Positions 7,880-56,823 of a stretch of DNA of 64,000 nt are shown here, piece after piece. The stretch comes from Actinomadura sp. KC06 (GTDB taxonomy: Bacteria; Actinomycetota; Actinomycetes; Streptosporangiales; Streptosporangiaceae). The notes beneath the pieces are model-generated. The model worked only from the letters and a program-made list of their open reading frames with translations. It ran no database searches and was not told the DNA's origin. Each line of letters opens with the position of its first letter. The stretch's first letter is position 1. The DNA lies in contig NZ_SMKT01000032.1 of NCBI RefSeq assembly GCF_004348735.1, forward strand, positions 1 through 64,000, in the 5' to 3' direction. The position numbers and the translations under genes were made by a program.

Positions 7880-8746
7880 TCAGGTGGTCCAGAGTTCTAG
7901 GTGGGCGCCGTCCGGGGTGGTGGCGGTGAAGGCGTGGCCGCCGCGTAGGGCGTTTTCGATGACTTCGCCGGTGTGGGCGCCGGCGGCGGTGAGGAGGGTG
8001 TGGGCGGCGTCCAGGTCTTGGACGGGGAAGACGCCCGCGTGCATGCCGGACGTGAACGACGCGTCGCCCTCCGGGAGGTCGAGGCCGGGGAAGCTGATCA
8101 GCTCGACGCGGGCGCCGCGGCCGTCCCAGAAGAGGTCCAGGACGATCTCGGCGTCCGGGTCGTCGATGCCGATCAGCGCGGCCACCGCCGGGTTGACCAG
8201 GCGCTGCGAGTAGAGCGGTTCGAGGCCGAGCCTCGTCCAGAAGGCGTGGTCGCAGCCGCGGGTGAGGTGGACGGCCGCCTGGAGCTCGGAGTGGCGCCGG
8301 GTCTCGTCGTCGTCCAGGAGGCTGGCGCGGCGGGAGTCGCCCTCGACCAGGACGACCCTGAAACCGCCGGGCCCGACGACCCCGCATTCGGCGAAGTGGC
8401 GGCCGCCGAGCTCCCAGCGGGCGACCGGGGACGGGACGCCGCCCGCGGCGACCAGTGCGGCGACGCTCGCCTCGATGTCGCGGGTGTAGACGTCGACGGC
8501 GTAGCCACCGGCGGCGACGGCCGGGGAGCCTACGGGCGCGGCGACCAGGAGCAGGCCGCCGGTGTCGGCGCCCTCCGGGAGATAGAGGACCTCCTCGGCC
8601 GGGCCGGGCAGGCCGTAGAGGGCTCCGGCGGCTGCGGGATCCAGCGTGCCGCGGCGGCGTTCGGCGAAGCCGAGGACGGACAGGAACCGCGCGCCGGCGG
8701 GGAGGTCGTGGCATCCGAGTACCGCGTACCGGGGGCTGCTGAGCAT
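7880..8746 (-). CDS. Two-domain VOC (glyoxalase/dioxygenase-fold) protein
   Basis: 288 residues. Domain 1 (about 5-135) opens YAVLGCHDLPAGARFLSVLGF; domain 2 (about 150-285) opens RRHSELQAAVHLTRGCDHAFW, with a C-terminal helix-strand LDAAHTLLTAAGAH. It is paralogous to the VOC genes at 1536, 6699 and 37444. Start ATG 8746. It is divergent from the cupin gene at 8825; the 78-bp gap carries a perfect operator-like palindrome at 8803. Substrate and reaction are unknown. Confidence 0.85.
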   Translation of the reverse strand: MLSSPRYAVLGCHDLPAGARFLSVLGFAERRRGTLDPAAAGALYGLPGPAEEVLYLPEGADTGGLLLVAAPVGSPAVAAGGYAVDVYTRDIEASVAALVAAGGVPSPVARWELGGRHFAECGVVGPGGFRVVLVEGDSRRASLLDDDETRRHSELQAAVHLTRGCDHAFWTRLGLEPLYSQRLVNPAVAALIGIDDPDAEIVLDLFWDGRGARVELISFPGLDLPEGDASFTSGMHAGVFPVQDLDAAHTLLTAAGAHTGEVIENALRGGHAFTATTPDGAHLELWTT

Positions 8747-8802
8747 GGGCGCTCTCCAGGATCGACGACCGGATTCGGCGCTGGCATACTAGCCGAAACG
8801 AT

Positions 8803-8819
8803 GTTCCGAGCTGAGGAAC
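8803..8819. promoter_or_regulatory. IclR-like operator, perfect arms
   Basis: GTTCC GAGCTGA GGAAC, immediately upstream of the cupin start (8825) and in the divergent gap to the VOC gene at 8746. Because it lies between, an upstream ATG at 8801 for the cupin is unlikely. Confidence 0.65.
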
Positions 8820-8824
8820 AGGGC

Positions 8825-9436
8825 ATGATGCTTTACCTCGATGACGTGCAACCGCTCGGCGGCGGGTCGCCGTGGCGGACGTTCACGATCCCGGGGTCCG
8901 CGCCTCCGGTGGCGCTGGTCAGGCTGGAAGTGGACCGAGGGGACGGGTCGTCCACCTCGCTGGTGCGGTTCCCTGCCGGGTGGACGCGTCCGGGGGCCGG
9001 GTACTACGGCTGCGACGAGGAGTTCGTCGTCCTGGACGGCGAACTCGAAGTCTCCGGTGTCGGATACGGGCCGGGCGACCGGGGCTGGATCCCGGCGCGC
9101 GGCACCCGGACCGATTCGCGCACGTCGACCGGGGTGACGGCGCTGGCCTGGTTCTCCGGAGTCCCGGACTGGTTCGACGGCGCGGGCGGCGCTCCGGGCG
9201 CCGTGCGGACGCCGCTGCTCACGGTCCCGATCCCGGACGGCGGTCTGCCGCTCCGCTCGGGGCGGTCCGAGGAGACCCGAGGGTATGAGCGGGTTCCGGC
9301 CTCGTTCGGGTCCGCCGCCCGTGTTCTCTGGCTCGCCGCGCCGCACGGGCCGCGCTGGACGGCGCTCGGGCCGGGCGACCCGGTCCCGCCCGGACGGACG
9401 GGCCGCGCCTTCGTCCACCTCAGGTATTCCAATTAG
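8825..9436 (+). CDS. Cupin-fold protein (DUF4437-like)
   Basis: 203 residues with a cupin core: RFPAGWTRPGAGYYGCDEEFVVLDGEL, where acidic residues replace part of the usual His pair, then GPGDRGWIPARGTRT. It is related to the larger cupins at 15559 and 45077, which share the phrase EEF/EYYVLxG. Cupins of this type may be oxygenases, isomerases or sugar-binding proteins; metal ligands look incomplete here, so binding rather than catalysis is possible. The start is ATG 8825, just after the operator; a start at 8801 would include the operator. The stop codon lies inside the next operator at 9426. Confidence 0.75.
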   Translation: MMLYLDDVQPLGGGSPWRTFTIPGSAPPVALVRLEVDRGDGSSTSLVRFPAGWTRPGAGYYGCDEEFVVLDGELEVSGVGYGPGDRGWIPARGTRTDSRTSTGVTALAWFSGVPDWFDGAGGAPGAVRTPLLTVPIPDGGLPLRSGRSEETRGYERVPASFGSAARVLWLAAPHGPRWTALGPGDPVPPGRTGRAFVHLRYSN

Positions 9437-9442
9437 CGGAAA
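9426..9442. promoter_or_regulatory. IclR-like operator, distal site
   Basis: ATTCC AATTAGC GGAAA, overlapping the cupin stop codon and 70 bp upstream of the gene at 9513. A second site follows at 9481, with 55 bp between starts (about five helical turns). Confidence 0.45.
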
Positions 9443-9480
9443 GCTGTTACAAAATGGCCTCCACGACCCGCCGTGACGTC

Positions 9481-9497
9481 GTTGCGCGCAGCGGAAC
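9481..9497. promoter_or_regulatory. IclR-like operator, proximal site
   Basis: GTTGC GCGCAGC GGAAC, one mismatch to the shared palindrome, 15 bp before the start at 9513. It pairs with the site at 9426. Confidence 0.45.
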
Positions 9498-9512
9498 ACT
9501 GGAGGACTCTGC

Positions 9513-9857
9513 ATGATCTACCTCGTCTACCGGATGAAGCTCAGCGAGCGGTCCCGCCGCAACCAGAAGGAGTTCTGGGCGTGGCTGGAGGACCGCGAGC
9601 GCTGGTTCTACCGCGATCTCCCGATGGTCAAGGAGGTCCGCTGGTACTACAGCGTGATCGGCGACGTGTACACGATCGAGAACTGGGCGGCGTTCGAGGA
9701 CGAGGCCGCGTGGGGCGAGTACCGCGCCGCGCTCGGCGGGCTGAAGTCCGACGCCGAGTGGGAGGGCGAGCGCGTCACGCAGGACGACTGGTGGGAGTTC
9801 CTCGACACGCGGATCGTCACCGACCCGCCGGTGCCCGTCGGCCTGCGCCGCGACTGA
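9513..9857 (+). CDS. Small conserved-type protein, probable dimeric alpha/beta-barrel
   Basis: 114 residues, no membrane segment. A strand-helix-strand opening (MIYLVYRMKLSERSRRN, then helix with FWAWLEDRERWFY) followed by VRWYYSVIGDVYTIENW and WGEYRAALGG suggests a ferredoxin-like dimeric alpha/beta-barrel such as NIPSNAP or monooxygenase-like proteins. No family is recognised with certainty. Rich in Trp and Tyr (about 12 and 8 per cent), suited to binding a hydrophobic ligand. ATG start with GGAGG eight bases before. It is followed 14 bp later by IclR 2, so the two are likely co-transcribed under the twin operators at 9426 and 9481. Confidence 0.75.
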   Translation: MIYLVYRMKLSERSRRNQKEFWAWLEDRERWFYRDLPMVKEVRWYYSVIGDVYTIENWAAFEDEAAWGEYRAALGGLKSDAEWEGERVTQDDWWEFLDTRIVTDPPVPVGLRRD

Positions 9858-51773: not shown

Positions 51774-52862
51774 TCAGGGGGCCGGGGCGGTGAAAGTCAG
51801 CGCGCGGGCCGGGTTCTCCACCATGATCTTGTGGACGGCCTCGTCCGGAACCCCGAGGCGCCGGAGCGCCGGCAGGAAATGGTCGGGGATGTAGCTGTAG
51901 CCCTGCCCGCCGTAGCGCTTGAGCTGGATCTTCTGGCAGACGTCGTGACCGAGCAGGATCTGCCCGGAGTACCCGTCCTCCACCAGGTCCGCGATGCCGC
52001 GGGCCATCTTGTGGTCGCCGAGCAGCACGAGATGGCCCCACGGGCTGCCCGGCGAGGCCAGGAAGTCGAACTCGATGAAGACGCCCCGCGCGAGCACCCG
52101 CCGCGCGAAGGGCAGGTCGACGGCCAAGGTCCCGGCGTGGCCGATGACGACGTTGGACGGGTCCGCGCCCTCCTCGTCCAGGATGTCGAGGACCGTGAAC
52201 TTCTCCTCGCCGACCCCGCCCACATGGAACGTGATCGGAGCGCCGGTGATGCGGCTCGCCCGCCCGGCGGCCCGGACGCTCTTGAGCTCGCCGGACGTCA
52301 GCGGCGCGCACTCCGCGCCGACCTCGCCGATGATCCCGGCGTGGATCCCGGTGCCGTCGGCGCCGTCCACGATGTCGCGGACGATCACGGCGGTGAGGTC
52401 GTCGACGGTCCGCTCGTCCATGTCGGGCGGGTGGAAGGTCGGCGTGTACCAGCCGGCGCCCATCACGATGTGGAGCCCGCTCGCCCGCGACATCCGCCGC
52501 AGCGAGCCGGGATCGCGGCCGATGCCGAGGTTGGTCACCTCCACGACCGTCCCGCCGCCGGCGCGCTGGAACTCGCGCACCTCCGCGAGCATCTCGTCGA
52601 AGTCCGCGAGGACGTCGTTGTCCGCGTTGACGGCCCCGTGCCTGGTGCGGGCCAGGTTGGCGAGGGTGAGCGGTTCCCGCGCCTGCGGGGAGTCCTCGCC
52701 CGGACGCAGCGCGTGGGCCGGACGGCGCAGGTCGACGAAGAGGTGCTCGTGCATGAGCGTCGGGCCGAGGGCCGAAGGATCGACCGGCCCGGTGACCGTG
52801 AGCACCTGACCGGCGAGGTCGGGAACGGCCGACGGCAGGTCCATCGGCTTCATCCGCTTCAT
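51774..52862 (-). CDS. Phosphotriesterase-family metal hydrolase (lactonase-like)
   Basis: 362 residues, TIM-barrel amidohydrolase superfamily. Metal ligands are visible: HEH (38-40, in TLMHEHLF), Glu180 (IGEVGAE, in place of carboxylated Lys, as in PTE-related proteins), His213 (TFHVGG), His242 (IGHAG) and Asp307 (LLGHD). The family includes lactonases and aryl/phosphotriesterases. Start ATG 52862 overlaps the stop of the upstream paralogue by 4 bp, so the two are co-translated. Confidence 0.88.
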   Translation of the reverse strand: MKRMKPMDLPSAVPDLAGQVLTVTGPVDPSALGPTLMHEHLFVDLRRPAHALRPGEDSPQAREPLTLANLARTRHGAVNADNDVLADFDEMLAEVREFQRAGGGTVVEVTNLGIGRDPGSLRRMSRASGLHIVMGAGWYTPTFHPPDMDERTVDDLTAVIVRDIVDGADGTGIHAGIIGEVGAECAPLTSGELKSVRAAGRASRITGAPITFHVGGVGEEKFTVLDILDEEGADPSNVVIGHAGTLAVDLPFARRVLARGVFIEFDFLASPGSPWGHLVLLGDHKMARGIADLVEDGYSGQILLGHDVCQKIQLKRYGGQGYSYIPDHFLPALRRLGVPDEAVHKIMVENPARALTFTAPAP

Positions 52863-53920
52863 CCGCGGCCCTCCGTCATGGTCAGCCAGCGGCGCGGATT
52901 CGACTCCGTGAGGGTGCTCAGCAGGGCTTCGTCCGCCCCCAGATACCCCAAGTAGGGGACGAACTGCTCGGCGACGAAACCGTATCCGCCGCCGCCGAAC
53001 GCCTTGAGGTCGATCTTGCGGGCGACGCGAGGCGACAGCAGGATCTGCTCGGCGTGGCCGCGCTCGGCGAGGTCCAGGACGGCGGCGGCGACGTCCTGGT
53101 CGTCGACCTCGCGGTTCACGGTCGGGAGGCGGCCGAGCCCGTCGAACTGCAGGAACACGCCGCGATCGGCGAGCCGGGCGAGGGCGTCGGCGTCGGTGGC
53201 GAGCCCGTCGCAGTGCCCGACGGCGACGCGGCCGAGGCCGGCGCCGGACGCGTCCATCAGGTCGAGGAGCCCGTGCGTGGCGGCCGCCGTCGCGGCGCGG
53301 TCGATGAGCACGGGGGCCCCGGTGCGCCGGGCGGCGTGCGCGACGGCGGCGACCAGGACGCGGTCGGCGGGACGATCGGGGTCCAGCCCCTCGATCTCAC
53401 CGATGACGCCCGCCCGGACGCCGTCCACGCCCTCACGGAGTTCACCGATGATCTCGGCGGTGAGGCTCTCGACCGTCCTGTCCGCGAGTCCGGGCGTCCG
53501 GGACGGGGAGTATCCGCCGCACCCCATCACCACGGCGACCCCGGTCGCCCGGGCGAGGTCGGCCAGCACCCGCGGCGCGCGGCCGAGGTCGGCGCCGGTC
53601 ACCTCGACGACGGCACCGCCGCCCAGGGCGGCGAAGTCGGCGAGCTCGGGACGGACGTCCGCCGCCGTAAGCCGCCGGTCGTCCCGGTTCAGCGCGCCCA
53701 GGGCGAGCGCGCCGAGCAGCTCCATGCTCACAGGCTCCTCGTCCACGCCTGCCTCGAAGACGCCGTTCGCGCCGCCTTCGGAGAGACCGTTCGCGTCGGC
53801 TTCGGAGAGGCCGTTCAGGTCGCTGACCAGGTGGACGGAGGTGACCGTGTGCCCGAGGGAACGCGGATCGACAGGCCCGGTGACGGTCACGACCTGTCCG
53901 GTCGCGCTCGGTGCGCTCAT
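52859..53920 (-). CDS. Degenerate phosphotriesterase-family paralogue, probably non-catalytic
   Basis: 353 residues from ATG 53920 (in-frame GTG codons upstream to 54025 are possible). It aligns along its length with the protein at 51774 (GQVVTVTGPVDP, VVEVTG, GEIEGLD, GAPVLID, VAVGHCDGLA, EQILLSPR). Only three of six metal ligands remain: His38 becomes Ser, His213 becomes Asp, Asp307 becomes Arg; His40, Glu180 and His242 equivalents stay. It also carries an insert of three 8-residue repeats (NGLSEADA type) at about 36-59. An obligate partner or regulator of the active paralogue is inferred. Confidence 0.8.
   Translation of the reverse strand: MSAPSATGQVVTVTGPVDPRSLGHTVTSVHLVSDLNGLSEADANGLSEGGANGVFEAGVDEEPVSMELLGALALGALNRDDRRLTAADVRPELADFAALGGGAVVEVTGADLGRAPRVLADLARATGVAVVMGCGGYSPSRTPGLADRTVESLTAEIIGELREGVDGVRAGVIGEIEGLDPDRPADRVLVAAVAHAARRTGAPVLIDRAATAAATHGLLDLMDASGAGLGRVAVGHCDGLATDADALARLADRGVFLQFDGLGRLPTVNREVDDQDVAAAVLDLAERGHAEQILLSPRVARKIDLKAFGGGGYGFVAEQFVPYLGYLGADEALLSTLTESNPRRWLTMTEGRG
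53747..53815. repeat. 24-bp in-frame tandem repeat inside the degenerate phosphotriesterase gene
   Basis: Two near-identical 24-bp units and a diverged third (for example CCGTTCGCGCCGCCTTCGG then CCGTTCGCGTCGGCTTCGG), encoding NGLSEADA, NGLSEGGA, NGVFEAGV. The unit length is a multiple of three, so copy number can change without a frameshift. Confidence 0.75.
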
Positions 53921-54276
53921 CTCACGGATAGGCTGGTCGTCATTCCCGGGCTCCACGCCGGTCAATGTATCGATCACCGTCCGCAGGCCCTCTTGTGTTT
54001 CACCGCACGCTAGTTGACGTTCCACGCACGCCGACCGGCCCGCGCCTGCCGCCCGACGTGTTTGGCCTCATCCGGAATCGGACCGGATGGCATGGCGTAG
54101 TCAGGCTAAGGCAGAATGAAAGTTGCATCGCGGCCAACCCGCTTGATCCATTCGGCGACGTTTCGGCCCGAATGAATGCGTCAACCCCGCGTGTCACACT
54201 GGCGGGAACTGACCTGATACGGCCGCTCAACCCGTTCTGACTGGCGGCACTTCTGCTGTTAGGCGATCCTGACGGC
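53921..54276. other. Intergenic region between divergent phosphotriesterase-like and TIR genes
   Basis: About 356 bp, AT-richer than its surroundings at 54100-54260. Open frames here have no family resemblance and no ribosome site. It must hold the promoters of both units, but no convincing -35/-10 pair or palindrome was seen. Confidence 0.5.
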
Positions 54277-56823
54277 GTGAGCACGACCGACGACGCAGGT
54301 CGGAAGAGATTCTTCATCAGTTACGCCGGACCTGACCGGCTGTGGGCCGAGTGGATCGGCTGGCAGCTCGAACAGGCGGAACACGATGTGGAACTCGATG
54401 TGTGGGACTGGGGACCGGGCGAGAACTTCGTGCTCCGCATGGACCAAGCGCTGCGTTCCGCAAACCAGGTGCTCGCCCTTTTCTCCGCGTCGTACTTCGA
54501 GCAGGACCGTTTCACGACCGATGAGTGGACGTCCACAATCGCGATCAAGGAGTACGGCCCGCGGCTGGTGCCGGTACGGATCGAGAACCTTCCCAGGGAG
54601 AGATTCCCCGCCGCGTTGCGGGCGATGACGACGCTCGACCTCTTCGGTCTGGAGGAGGACCAGGCGCGACGCCGTCTGCTGGAGCTCGTGGAGCAGCCCG
54701 GGCACCCCGCGAGCAGCCCGGTCTTCCCCGGCCCAGGGCGCAGCGGCGTCCCGCGCGGGCTGGGGCCGCGGCTGCCCGGCGCCGGGCCGCAAGTGTGGCG
54801 GGTCCCCGCTCGAAACGCGTCCTTCGCCGGACGGGACTCGCTGCTCGTGGAGATTCGCGAAGCGTTGACCGTGTCGATCAGCGGAGTGGTAGTCCTCTAC
54901 GGCGGAGGCGGTTTCGGAAAGACGCAGACAGCGATCGAGTACGCGCACCGATTCGCCTCGGACTATGACGCCGTTTGGGTCATCGATGCCGAGCAGAGCG
55001 AATTGATCACTGGTCAGCTGGCGGCGCTGGCGACCGAGTTGGACGTGCGAGCGCCGGTGACCGATCAGACGGTCACCGCCCACCGCGCTTTGGCGGAGCT
55101 GCACAAATCGGAGAGATGGCTGCTGGTCTTCGACAATGCTGAAGATCCGGCGGAGATAATCGACTATCTTCCCGGCGGGCGCGGGCACGTGCTCATCACG
55201 TCCAGAAATTCAGCGTGGGCCGAAGCTGGTACCCGTATCGCGGTAGAAGTGTTCACGCGCGAAGAATCCGTGCGGCTTCTGCATAACCTCGTCCCCCGTC
55301 TGTCGCCCAGTGAGGCCGCGCACCTGGCGGAAATTCTCGGGGATTTGCCGCTGGCGCTCGTCCAGGCCGCCGGTGTCCTCGCCAGCGGGGTGACCGTGGC
55401 CCAGTACGAGCGTTCCTTGGAGGCTCATGCCACGGAGGTGCTCAGCCGCGGGCGGCCGATCTCGTATCCCGCGTCGCTCGCCGCCGCGACGTCCCTCGCG
55501 CTGGAACGGCTCGCGGCGGCCAGGGCCGGCGGCGAGACGGTGATCCGGGCCTGTGCCTATCTGGCGTCCGAGCCGATTCCGGCCGCCTGGTTCTACGCGT
55601 CGCCGCGGTCGGCGGGCGAGGACCTCGCGGACGCGCTGGAGGCGCTTCCGGCGGGCGTCCTCAAGGTCAGCCGGGCCTTCGAGGCCATCACGCGCTACGG
55701 CCTGGCGCGCATCGACCGCAACGAGCTGCGCCTGCACCGCCTCACCGCCGCCGTCATCCGCGATCAGACGCGGGCGCAGCGTGCGGCGTACCAGGCGGTC
55801 ATCGCCGGGCTCCTCGTCGCGGCCGAGCCGAGGACGACCGACAAGCCGGAGACATGGCCGGACTGGGCCGTCCTCGTCCCGCACGTCCTGAGCCAGGATC
55901 CCGCGACGAGCCCTCATGATCCGCTCCGCCTGCTGGCGACCGGCGTCGTCCGCTATCTGGTCTCGAGCGGGCAGACTCAGACGGCGCTTCCCGTCGCGGA
56001 GCATTTCTATGCGTGTTGGCAGGAGGCCCTCGGCCCGGACCACGCGACCTGCCTGGAAATAAGCATGCAGCTGGCCTACGTCTATCAGCGGCTCGGCTTG
56101 TACGCGAAGTCTCAGCGGCTGAACGAGGACTGCCTGGCACGGTGCCGCCGCATTCTCGGCCCGGACGACCCGCGGACGCTCAAGGCGGCCACCGACCTGG
56201 CCACGGACCTCTACGCGCTGGGGGCGGCGGAAAGAGCGTGCGCCTTGAACGAGGAGACGTTCCGCCGCAGCACGGAGGTGTTGGGGGAGAATGCGCGCTC
56301 CACCCTCGGTGTCGCCTACAACTTCGCCATCGACCTGTACACCCTGGGCGACCTCGGCACGGCCCGCGCGATGGTGGAGGAAATCCACGGACGGCGCCGC
56401 GAGGTGCTGGGCGTCGAGCATCCCGATACGTTGAACTCGGCGGGCATCATGGCGGGCCACTTGAGCGAGTCGGGGCAGGTGGAGGCGGCGCGCACCCTGG
56501 CGGAGGACACTCTTGAAATGTGCCGCCGCGCCTTGGGCGAGGACCATCCGCAGACGCTGCTCGTGGCCAGAAGCCTCGCCCTATATCTGCGGCAGCTTCA
56601 CGAAACGGAGGAGGCCCGGCGCCTGGAGGACGAGACGTTGGAGCGCTACCGCGTCGTGCTCGGGGAGGAACACCCGGACACCGCGGCCATGGCCGAGCGG
56701 GTCGCCGTCCATCGAAACGAGGGCGGCGCGGGAAACGGTGAGGCGATCGACCGGAAGGAAGCCGGCCGGGAAGCGTGGAATCACGAACTCATGCAGCTCT
56801 ACAGGGCTTTTCGCCTACTGTGA
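54277..56823 (+). CDS. TIR-NB-ARC-TPR protein (STAND NTPase)
   Basis: 848 residues. TIR domain about 10-130: KRFFISYAGPDRLWAEWIG, LDVWDWGPGENF, and Glu in FTTDEWTS (about 83), the site of the catalytic Glu of TIR NADases. NB-ARC about 185-450: P-loop GGGGFGKTQ at 208-216, Walker B WLLVFDN at about 282, LITSRN sensor and GDLPLAL. TPR array about 560-820 with five or so 42-residue repeats of the LGxxHPxTL kind. In bacteria this layout occurs in immune (anti-phage) sensors and in regulators. GTG start without a strong ribosome site. No cognate partner gene is evident, so it may be a single-gene system. Confidence 0.9.
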   Translation: MSTTDDAGRKRFFISYAGPDRLWAEWIGWQLEQAEHDVELDVWDWGPGENFVLRMDQALRSANQVLALFSASYFEQDRFTTDEWTSTIAIKEYGPRLVPVRIENLPRERFPAALRAMTTLDLFGLEEDQARRRLLELVEQPGHPASSPVFPGPGRSGVPRGLGPRLPGAGPQVWRVPARNASFAGRDSLLVEIREALTVSISGVVVLYGGGGFGKTQTAIEYAHRFASDYDAVWVIDAEQSELITGQLAALATELDVRAPVTDQTVTAHRALAELHKSERWLLVFDNAEDPAEIIDYLPGGRGHVLITSRNSAWAEAGTRIAVEVFTREESVRLLHNLVPRLSPSEAAHLAEILGDLPLALVQAAGVLASGVTVAQYERSLEAHATEVLSRGRPISYPASLAAATSLALERLAAARAGGETVIRACAYLASEPIPAAWFYASPRSAGEDLADALEALPAGVLKVSRAFEAITRYGLARIDRNELRLHRLTAAVIRDQTRAQRAAYQAVIAGLLVAAEPRTTDKPETWPDWAVLVPHVLSQDPATSPHDPLRLLATGVVRYLVSSGQTQTALPVAEHFYACWQEALGPDHATCLEISMQLAYVYQRLGLYAKSQRLNEDCLARCRRILGPDDPRTLKAATDLATDLYALGAAERACALNEETFRRSTEVLGENARSTLGVAYNFAIDLYTLGDLGTARAMVEEIHGRRREVLGVEHPDTLNSAGIMAGHLSESGQVEAARTLAEDTLEMCRRALGEDHPQTLLVARSLALYLRQLHETEEARRLEDETLERYRVVLGEEHPDTAAMAERVAVHRNEGGAGNGEAIDRKEAGREAWNHELMQLYRAFRLL

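Follow-up and report, generated by a model that had tools for sequence, protein, structure and literature searches.

An overlapping gene pair of Actinomadura and relatives encoding an intact phosphotriesterase-family hydrolase and a ligand-degenerate, possibly partnering relative

Known phosphotriesterase-family proteins and the gene pair

Enzymes of the phosphotriesterase (PTE) family, studied as homodimers, serve as a standard model for detoxification and for how enzymes evolve. The SsoPox and SisLac lactonases are described as homodimers with an interface near the active site and a dimer pivot at residue 34 (PMC3468530), and dimer formation in PTE-like enzymes has been suggested to be important for activity (PMC7084321). 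Another member, PTER, is reported to hydrolyse N-acetyltaurine (PMC11374699). Dead subunits are described for other enzymes. The aspartate transcarbamoylase of P. aeruginosa is reported to need an inactive dihydroorotase-like subunit (PMC7053772), and in trypanosomatids a dead paralogue activates the enzyme in the AdoMetDC/prozyme and deoxyhypusine synthase systems (PMC5201418, PMC3663545). A sequence-only reading of the DNA described here had remarked that such catalytic/non-catalytic pairs are known elsewhere but not for the PTE family, and the titles listed by our searches of the open-licence literature agree, with none reporting an active/dead pair in this family. As far as these searches show, a PTE-family enzyme paired with a dead paralogue is new.

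We analysed a stretch of 64,000 nucleotides of Actinomadura sp. KC06 (contig NZ_SMKT01000032.1, positions 1 to 64,000), hereafter the window. It contains two overlapping PTE-family genes, whose products we call D (upstream) and C (downstream). Their features are as follows.

52859-53920, minus strand: D, putative PTE-family pseudoenzyme of 353 aa, first (upstream) gene of the pair (PF02126 match and ligand alignment)
51774-52862, minus strand: C, predicted canonical PTE-family metallohydrolase of 362 aa, second (downstream) gene (PF02126 match and ligand alignment)
52859-52862, minus strand: start/stop overlap of D and C, 4 bp, ATGA (read from the sequence)
53837-53839, minus strand: Ser28 of D, replacing the first His of HxH (alignment)
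53300-53302, minus strand: Asp207 of D, replacing the third ligand His (alignment)
53027-53029, minus strand: Arg298 of D, replacing the ligand Asp of beta8 (alignment)
53754-53823, minus strand: in-frame repeat of a 24-bp unit, 2.9 copies, in the loop after HxH of D (repeat search of the sequence)
53048-53107, minus strand: D residues 272-291, a candidate contact surface chosen by block conservation, with a predicted helix at 274-292

Both proteins match PF02126 (curated cut-off, 22.4 bits) over almost its entire length: C scores 219.9 bits over profile positions 1-297 of 298, and D, scored from the longer open reading frame 52859-54025, 164.9 bits over positions 2-298. The start of D at 53920 agrees with the proteins of close relatives, which start at the equivalent alignment position. 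Of the ligands expected for a catalytic PTE-type binuclear metallohydrolase (HxH, a bridging Glu/Lys, His, His and Asp), C has the complete set (H38, H40, E180, H213, H242 and D307), and D has S28, H30, E175, D207, H236 and R298 at the same positions. The sequence-only reading had thus described exactly the Ser, Asp and Arg at three of the six ligand positions of the upstream protein and the complete set of the downstream one. The repeat insert that it had noticed in the upstream protein is also real, an 8-residue unit repeated in frame. Read by eye in an alignment of the D proteins, this insert occurs only in the window and in A. soli, and the loop that holds it varies from 12 to 34 residues across 20 D proteins (23 residues in 20/20 C). 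We therefore regard the insert as a detail of one lineage.

The closest solved relative of C is 3k2g, a 'resiniferatoxin-binding, phosphotriesterase-related' protein of Rhodobacter sphaeroides (238.7 bits), and PTER (9efa/9efb) scores 212.1 bits against C, a likeness of overall similarity. 3k2g also heads the sequence matches of D (158.4 bits), but unlike D, it keeps all six ligands when aligned with C. The names of the 3k2g and PTER entries give no pointer to a dead partner. The two AlphaFold models of the pair, built from 13 sequences, are too poor to locate a contact surface (mean pLDDT 59.0 and 60.1), and a fold search with the low-confidence D model returned PTE-family structures first, with 3k2g at the top. 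By analogy with known members of the family, the likeliest substrate of C would be an ester, a lactone or an N-acyl amide. SsoPox and SisLac have the same PTE-family fold as C and D, but consist of two identical active subunits. In the P. aeruginosa complex, unlike in the C/D pair, the two partners are not paralogues of each other. The trypanosomatid pairs are other enzymes of eukaryotic hosts with complexes shown by experiment, whereas a C:D complex is proposed from sequence.

Just upstream of the pair, in the divergent orientation, lies a gene (54277-56823, plus strand) for an 848-aa protein with TIR, NB-ARC and TPR regions by Pfam, possibly a defence or signalling gene.

Distribution, arrangement and origin of the pair

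Of 297 genomes of the order, separate searches with D and with C picked out an identical set of 18 with orthologues, when the best 5-6 candidates per genome were scored there and in the class. These are the window's own genome, 8 others of its genus and 9 from five other genera. The C orthologues are at least 71% identical to the window's protein in the 17 unbroken copies (that of A. sp. KC216 runs off its contig), and the next match in these genomes falls to 42%. Five further genomes carry the pair: A. rubrisoli (G924), A. chibensis (G921), G923, G928 and G465. Other carriers include A. soli (G278), A. sp. KC216 (G294), A. syzygii (G261) and A. roseirufa (G241). Within the genus, 13 of the 65 genomes searched have it. 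The pair of G465, the one addition from 394 genomes of the class, belongs to another family of that class, and its C and D are 64% and 38% identical to those of the window; no other pair was found in the 22 genomes of its family, which are also the 22 of its order. The carriers of the pair, some of them soil actinobacteria, span seven genera and two families. Beyond the class, 296 genomes of the phylum gave a single 40% match (G737, of a different class), and every match to C among 200 plasmid records was below 60% identity. In G737 we observed two PTE-family genes facing each other on opposite strands about 1.8 kb apart (L095 5650-6696, plus, and 8493-9524, minus).

The sequence-only reading had proposed a search for other adjacent pairs with the same ligand losses. 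We found 22 others, with C intact and D degenerate in all that were read. A D orthologue without C was not found in the 297 genomes of the order or the 394 of the class among the best 5-6 candidates per genome. A profile of 19 D proteins, including those of the window and G465, was also run on the 394 class genomes; only these two D proteins stood well above the rest, at 554.8 and 400.2 bits, and the next scores (286.4 and 271.6 bits) belong to their own C partners.

In 23/23 pairs D and C share a strand with D upstream, and the D stop and C start overlap as ATGA or GTGA in 22 of them, including the ATGA of the window. The overlap itself was thus read correctly in the sequence-only reading, while the matched amounts of the two proteins that it drew from the overlap are no strict consequence; the usual inference would be translational coupling. 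The exception is G284, a draft of 960 contigs, in which C is frameshifted and D is nearly intact. This C gene (L050) shows a GVIG/GEVG repeat run and frame changes around the bridging Glu, from either an assembly error or real breakage. In A. roseirufa (600 contigs) D is split: residues 260-353 precede an intact C, and residues 6-201 stand at the end of another contig. By eye, this D fragment (L057 5380-5560) is joined directly to the apparent start of a DnaE-type gene, and the contig may therefore be chimeric.

We then examined the surroundings of the pair. No family besides C and D was found in more than 4 of 21 loci by our own gene calls, with the two contigs of A. roseirufa counted apart. 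An alpha/beta hydrolase gene follows C in four loci (G125, G211, G199 and G205), and the two of these that were scanned are both Abhydrolase_3. Operon context as a clue to the substrate was dropped, because no gene is common to all loci. The 26 nearest relatives outside C and D have no second PTE gene within their loci of about 4 kb, a few of which are shortened by contig ends.

C and D are probably sisters, and the pair is likely to have originated by an old tandem duplication. They group together at 90/93 in a tree with the solitary protein S (see below) and its intact relatives as outside rows. In the first tree, constraining C and D together improved the likelihood by 3.94 log units over the free search, and the grouping is not rejected (p-AU 0.60). 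The evolutionary distances of C and D correlate at r 0.91 over 153 pairs, as is largely expected from co-inheritance alone, and the rate of D is about 2.3 times that of C. We also considered whether the pair had moved horizontally; the genus changes 4 times on either tree where 3 would be the fewest possible, too weak a signal for such a claim.

Ligand loss and selection in D

C reads HHEHHD in 22/22 proteins (the 20 aligned plus G923 and G928), and the six ligands are likewise intact in 26/26 of the best-scoring relatives outside the pair. None of the 22 D proteins read has a complete set, with between one and five ligands lost in each. Among the 20 aligned D proteins, one ligand is lost in 6, two in 2, three in 7 and five in 5; the D proteins of G923 and G928 have each lost five. 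This alignment omits the incomplete D of G241 and C of G284, and the long branches R_L003 and R_G737a. The third ligand His is missing from all 22, being replaced in the 20 aligned proteins by Asp (11), Arg (3), Ala (2), Glu (2), Ser (1) or Gly (1), and the second His of HxH is kept in 20/20.

It is conceivable, though rather improbable, that D retains enzymatic activity, as a hydrolase with one metal or an altered site that performs a second step. Four of the 20 D proteins (the G125, G211, G221 and G185 type) keep five ligands and differ from the canonical set by His to Asp alone. Asp is able to bind metal, and these four may still do so. However, the other 16, as well as those of G923 and G928, have a non-acidic residue at the third His or further losses, up to the five of six ligands counted above. 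The residual ligand set also differs among relatives, as expected for a disused site.

The rest of the protein is better kept than the site. At 42 non-ligand columns conserved in C and the 26 relatives, D keeps 84% on average, compared to 53% at the 6 ligand columns. The dN/dS ratios from 9 chosen species pairs, some sharing species, are 0.31-0.55 for D and 0.09-0.25 for C, with D higher in 9/9 comparisons. No internal stop occurs in the 20 aligned D proteins. Thus, D is under purifying selection, and the dN/dS values and open frames led us to reject D as a decaying pseudogene. Decay of D as a duplicate that the operon carries with it would agree with its faster evolution, its variable loop and the split copy in one draft, but this selection, the preserved non-ligand positions and the persistence of the pair in its seven genera and two families make it highly implausible.

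When 18 pairs are compared by blocks of 20 residues, conservation is lower in D than in C everywhere except in D272-291 (0.83 vs 0.72 in C) and D235-254 (0.63 vs 0.62), with equal values at the extreme C-terminus. At 0.21, the same as D139-157, the loop after HxH belongs to the most variable blocks of D, and only the N-terminus is lower at 0.11. D also has invariants of its own: R231 and R264 in 20/20 proteins, and R208 and D238 in 19/20 (G465 being the exception). Some of these directly follow barrel strands, on the catalytic face. Their apparent clustering on that face is a post hoc idea, drawn without a control.

A solitary degenerate protein and the possible role of D

We found a second degenerate PTE protein, named S, whose gene (G000:C27 851-1837, minus strand; locus L003) is the third of the PTE family in the genome that the window comes from. 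It keeps HxH and the Glu, while the third His is Tyr, the fourth His is Gln and the Asp is Gly. Orthologues of S, two of them fragmented, are present in 65/65 genomes searched in the genus at 68-98% identity, and S is apparently core to the genus. Loci with S include L003, L122-L151 and L159-L163. The ligand strings of 35 S proteins read HHEYQG in 31, HHEYRG in 2, HHERRG in 1 and HHEHRG in 1, and no PTE gene stands beside S in any of these 35 loci (about 3-7 kb each). The nearest relatives of S, about 51-53% identical, have intact ligands in 3/3 cases. D and S as one clade are rejected by 81.8 log units (p-AU 4.7e-5), and on these trees D and S are independent ligand losses. As read from the alignments, the genus keeps two ligand-degenerate PTE lineages, one paired and one alone; S resembles D in being conserved and degenerate, but differs in its retained HxH and in having no adjacent PTE gene. 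At an E-value of 1e-10, PF02126 matches nothing but S in three genomes (G151, G095 and G103), and the ligands were read in the first of these. Thus, a dead PTE protein need not have an adjacent live partner, and a degenerate one can persist without a live one. The sequence-only reading had taken a degenerate member that stands alone or decays as evidence against its proposal. In the genomes searched, none of the D orthologues found stands alone or contains an internal stop, whereas S, a different protein, is degenerate and solitary.

We favour, at a probability of roughly one half, the explanation that C and D are an operon unit in which D is kept as a non-catalytic partner, probably a tandem duplicate, that most likely binds C. 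The two genes would form a stand-alone bicistronic operon with products acting as one unit. C, presumably a binuclear metallohydrolase of the 3k2g/PTER-like branch of the family, would provide the only complete active site. D would be translated first, coupled to C, and would most likely replace one copy of the PTE homodimer by binding C. It might stabilise, activate or regulate C, in a stoichiometry that we can only infer. Since the family homodimer interface is near the active site and the dimer has been suggested to matter for activity, a dead half could tune the live half. On the other hand, the loop after HxH, where we presume that pivot residue 34 of SsoPox and SisLac falls by their numbering, is the one whose length varies among the D proteins, which argues against a simple subunit swap. 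The frameshifted C beside a nearly intact D in G284 and the split D of A. roseirufa also count against a partner role, both coming from drafts of 600-960 contigs. The solitary state of S lowers our confidence in a C:D heteromer and raises it in a function of D on its own.

In that alternative, which we consider possible but doubtful, D has been neofunctionalised as a substrate or product binder or a sensor that works beside C without binding it, and the coupling only ensures co-expression. The persistence of S alone with degenerate ligands in the same genus would then be another instance of this trend. The faster evolution of D fits as well, and its own invariants, R231 included, could be those of a remodelled pocket. 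However, the co-occurrence in 18/18 genomes, together with the fixed gene order and overlap, seems tighter than a shared pathway usually needs.

A stronger form of the partner explanation, which we judge unlikely, makes D an obligate prozyme: C would be inactive or unstable alone, and the vacated face of D would bind an effector that switches C on. The catalytic face of D would then have been re-fixed with the new invariants R264, R208 and D238. If true, the PTE family would have its first obligate heteromer of an active and a dead subunit, and the natural D variants would record the stepwise loss of a metal site, with S as a further, solitary dead lineage in the genus.

Whichever role D has, its losses of one, two, three or five ligands by species, beside an intact C, would allow the origin and role of a pseudoenzyme subunit to be measured. 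S in the same genus offers a ready comparison for what solitary dead PTE proteins do.

Adjacent PTE-family pairs of another kind were observed in G402, G473 and G587 (L116 8594-10669, L117 and L118), from two other families. The matches lie 22-26 bp apart, and by eye both members have HEH, Glu, His, His and Asp. These pairs of two intact members count against the partner explanation. At a contig end in G465:C37 (L119 8673-10458) there are also two near-identical tandem PTE-family genes, which represent either a recent duplication or an assembly artefact.
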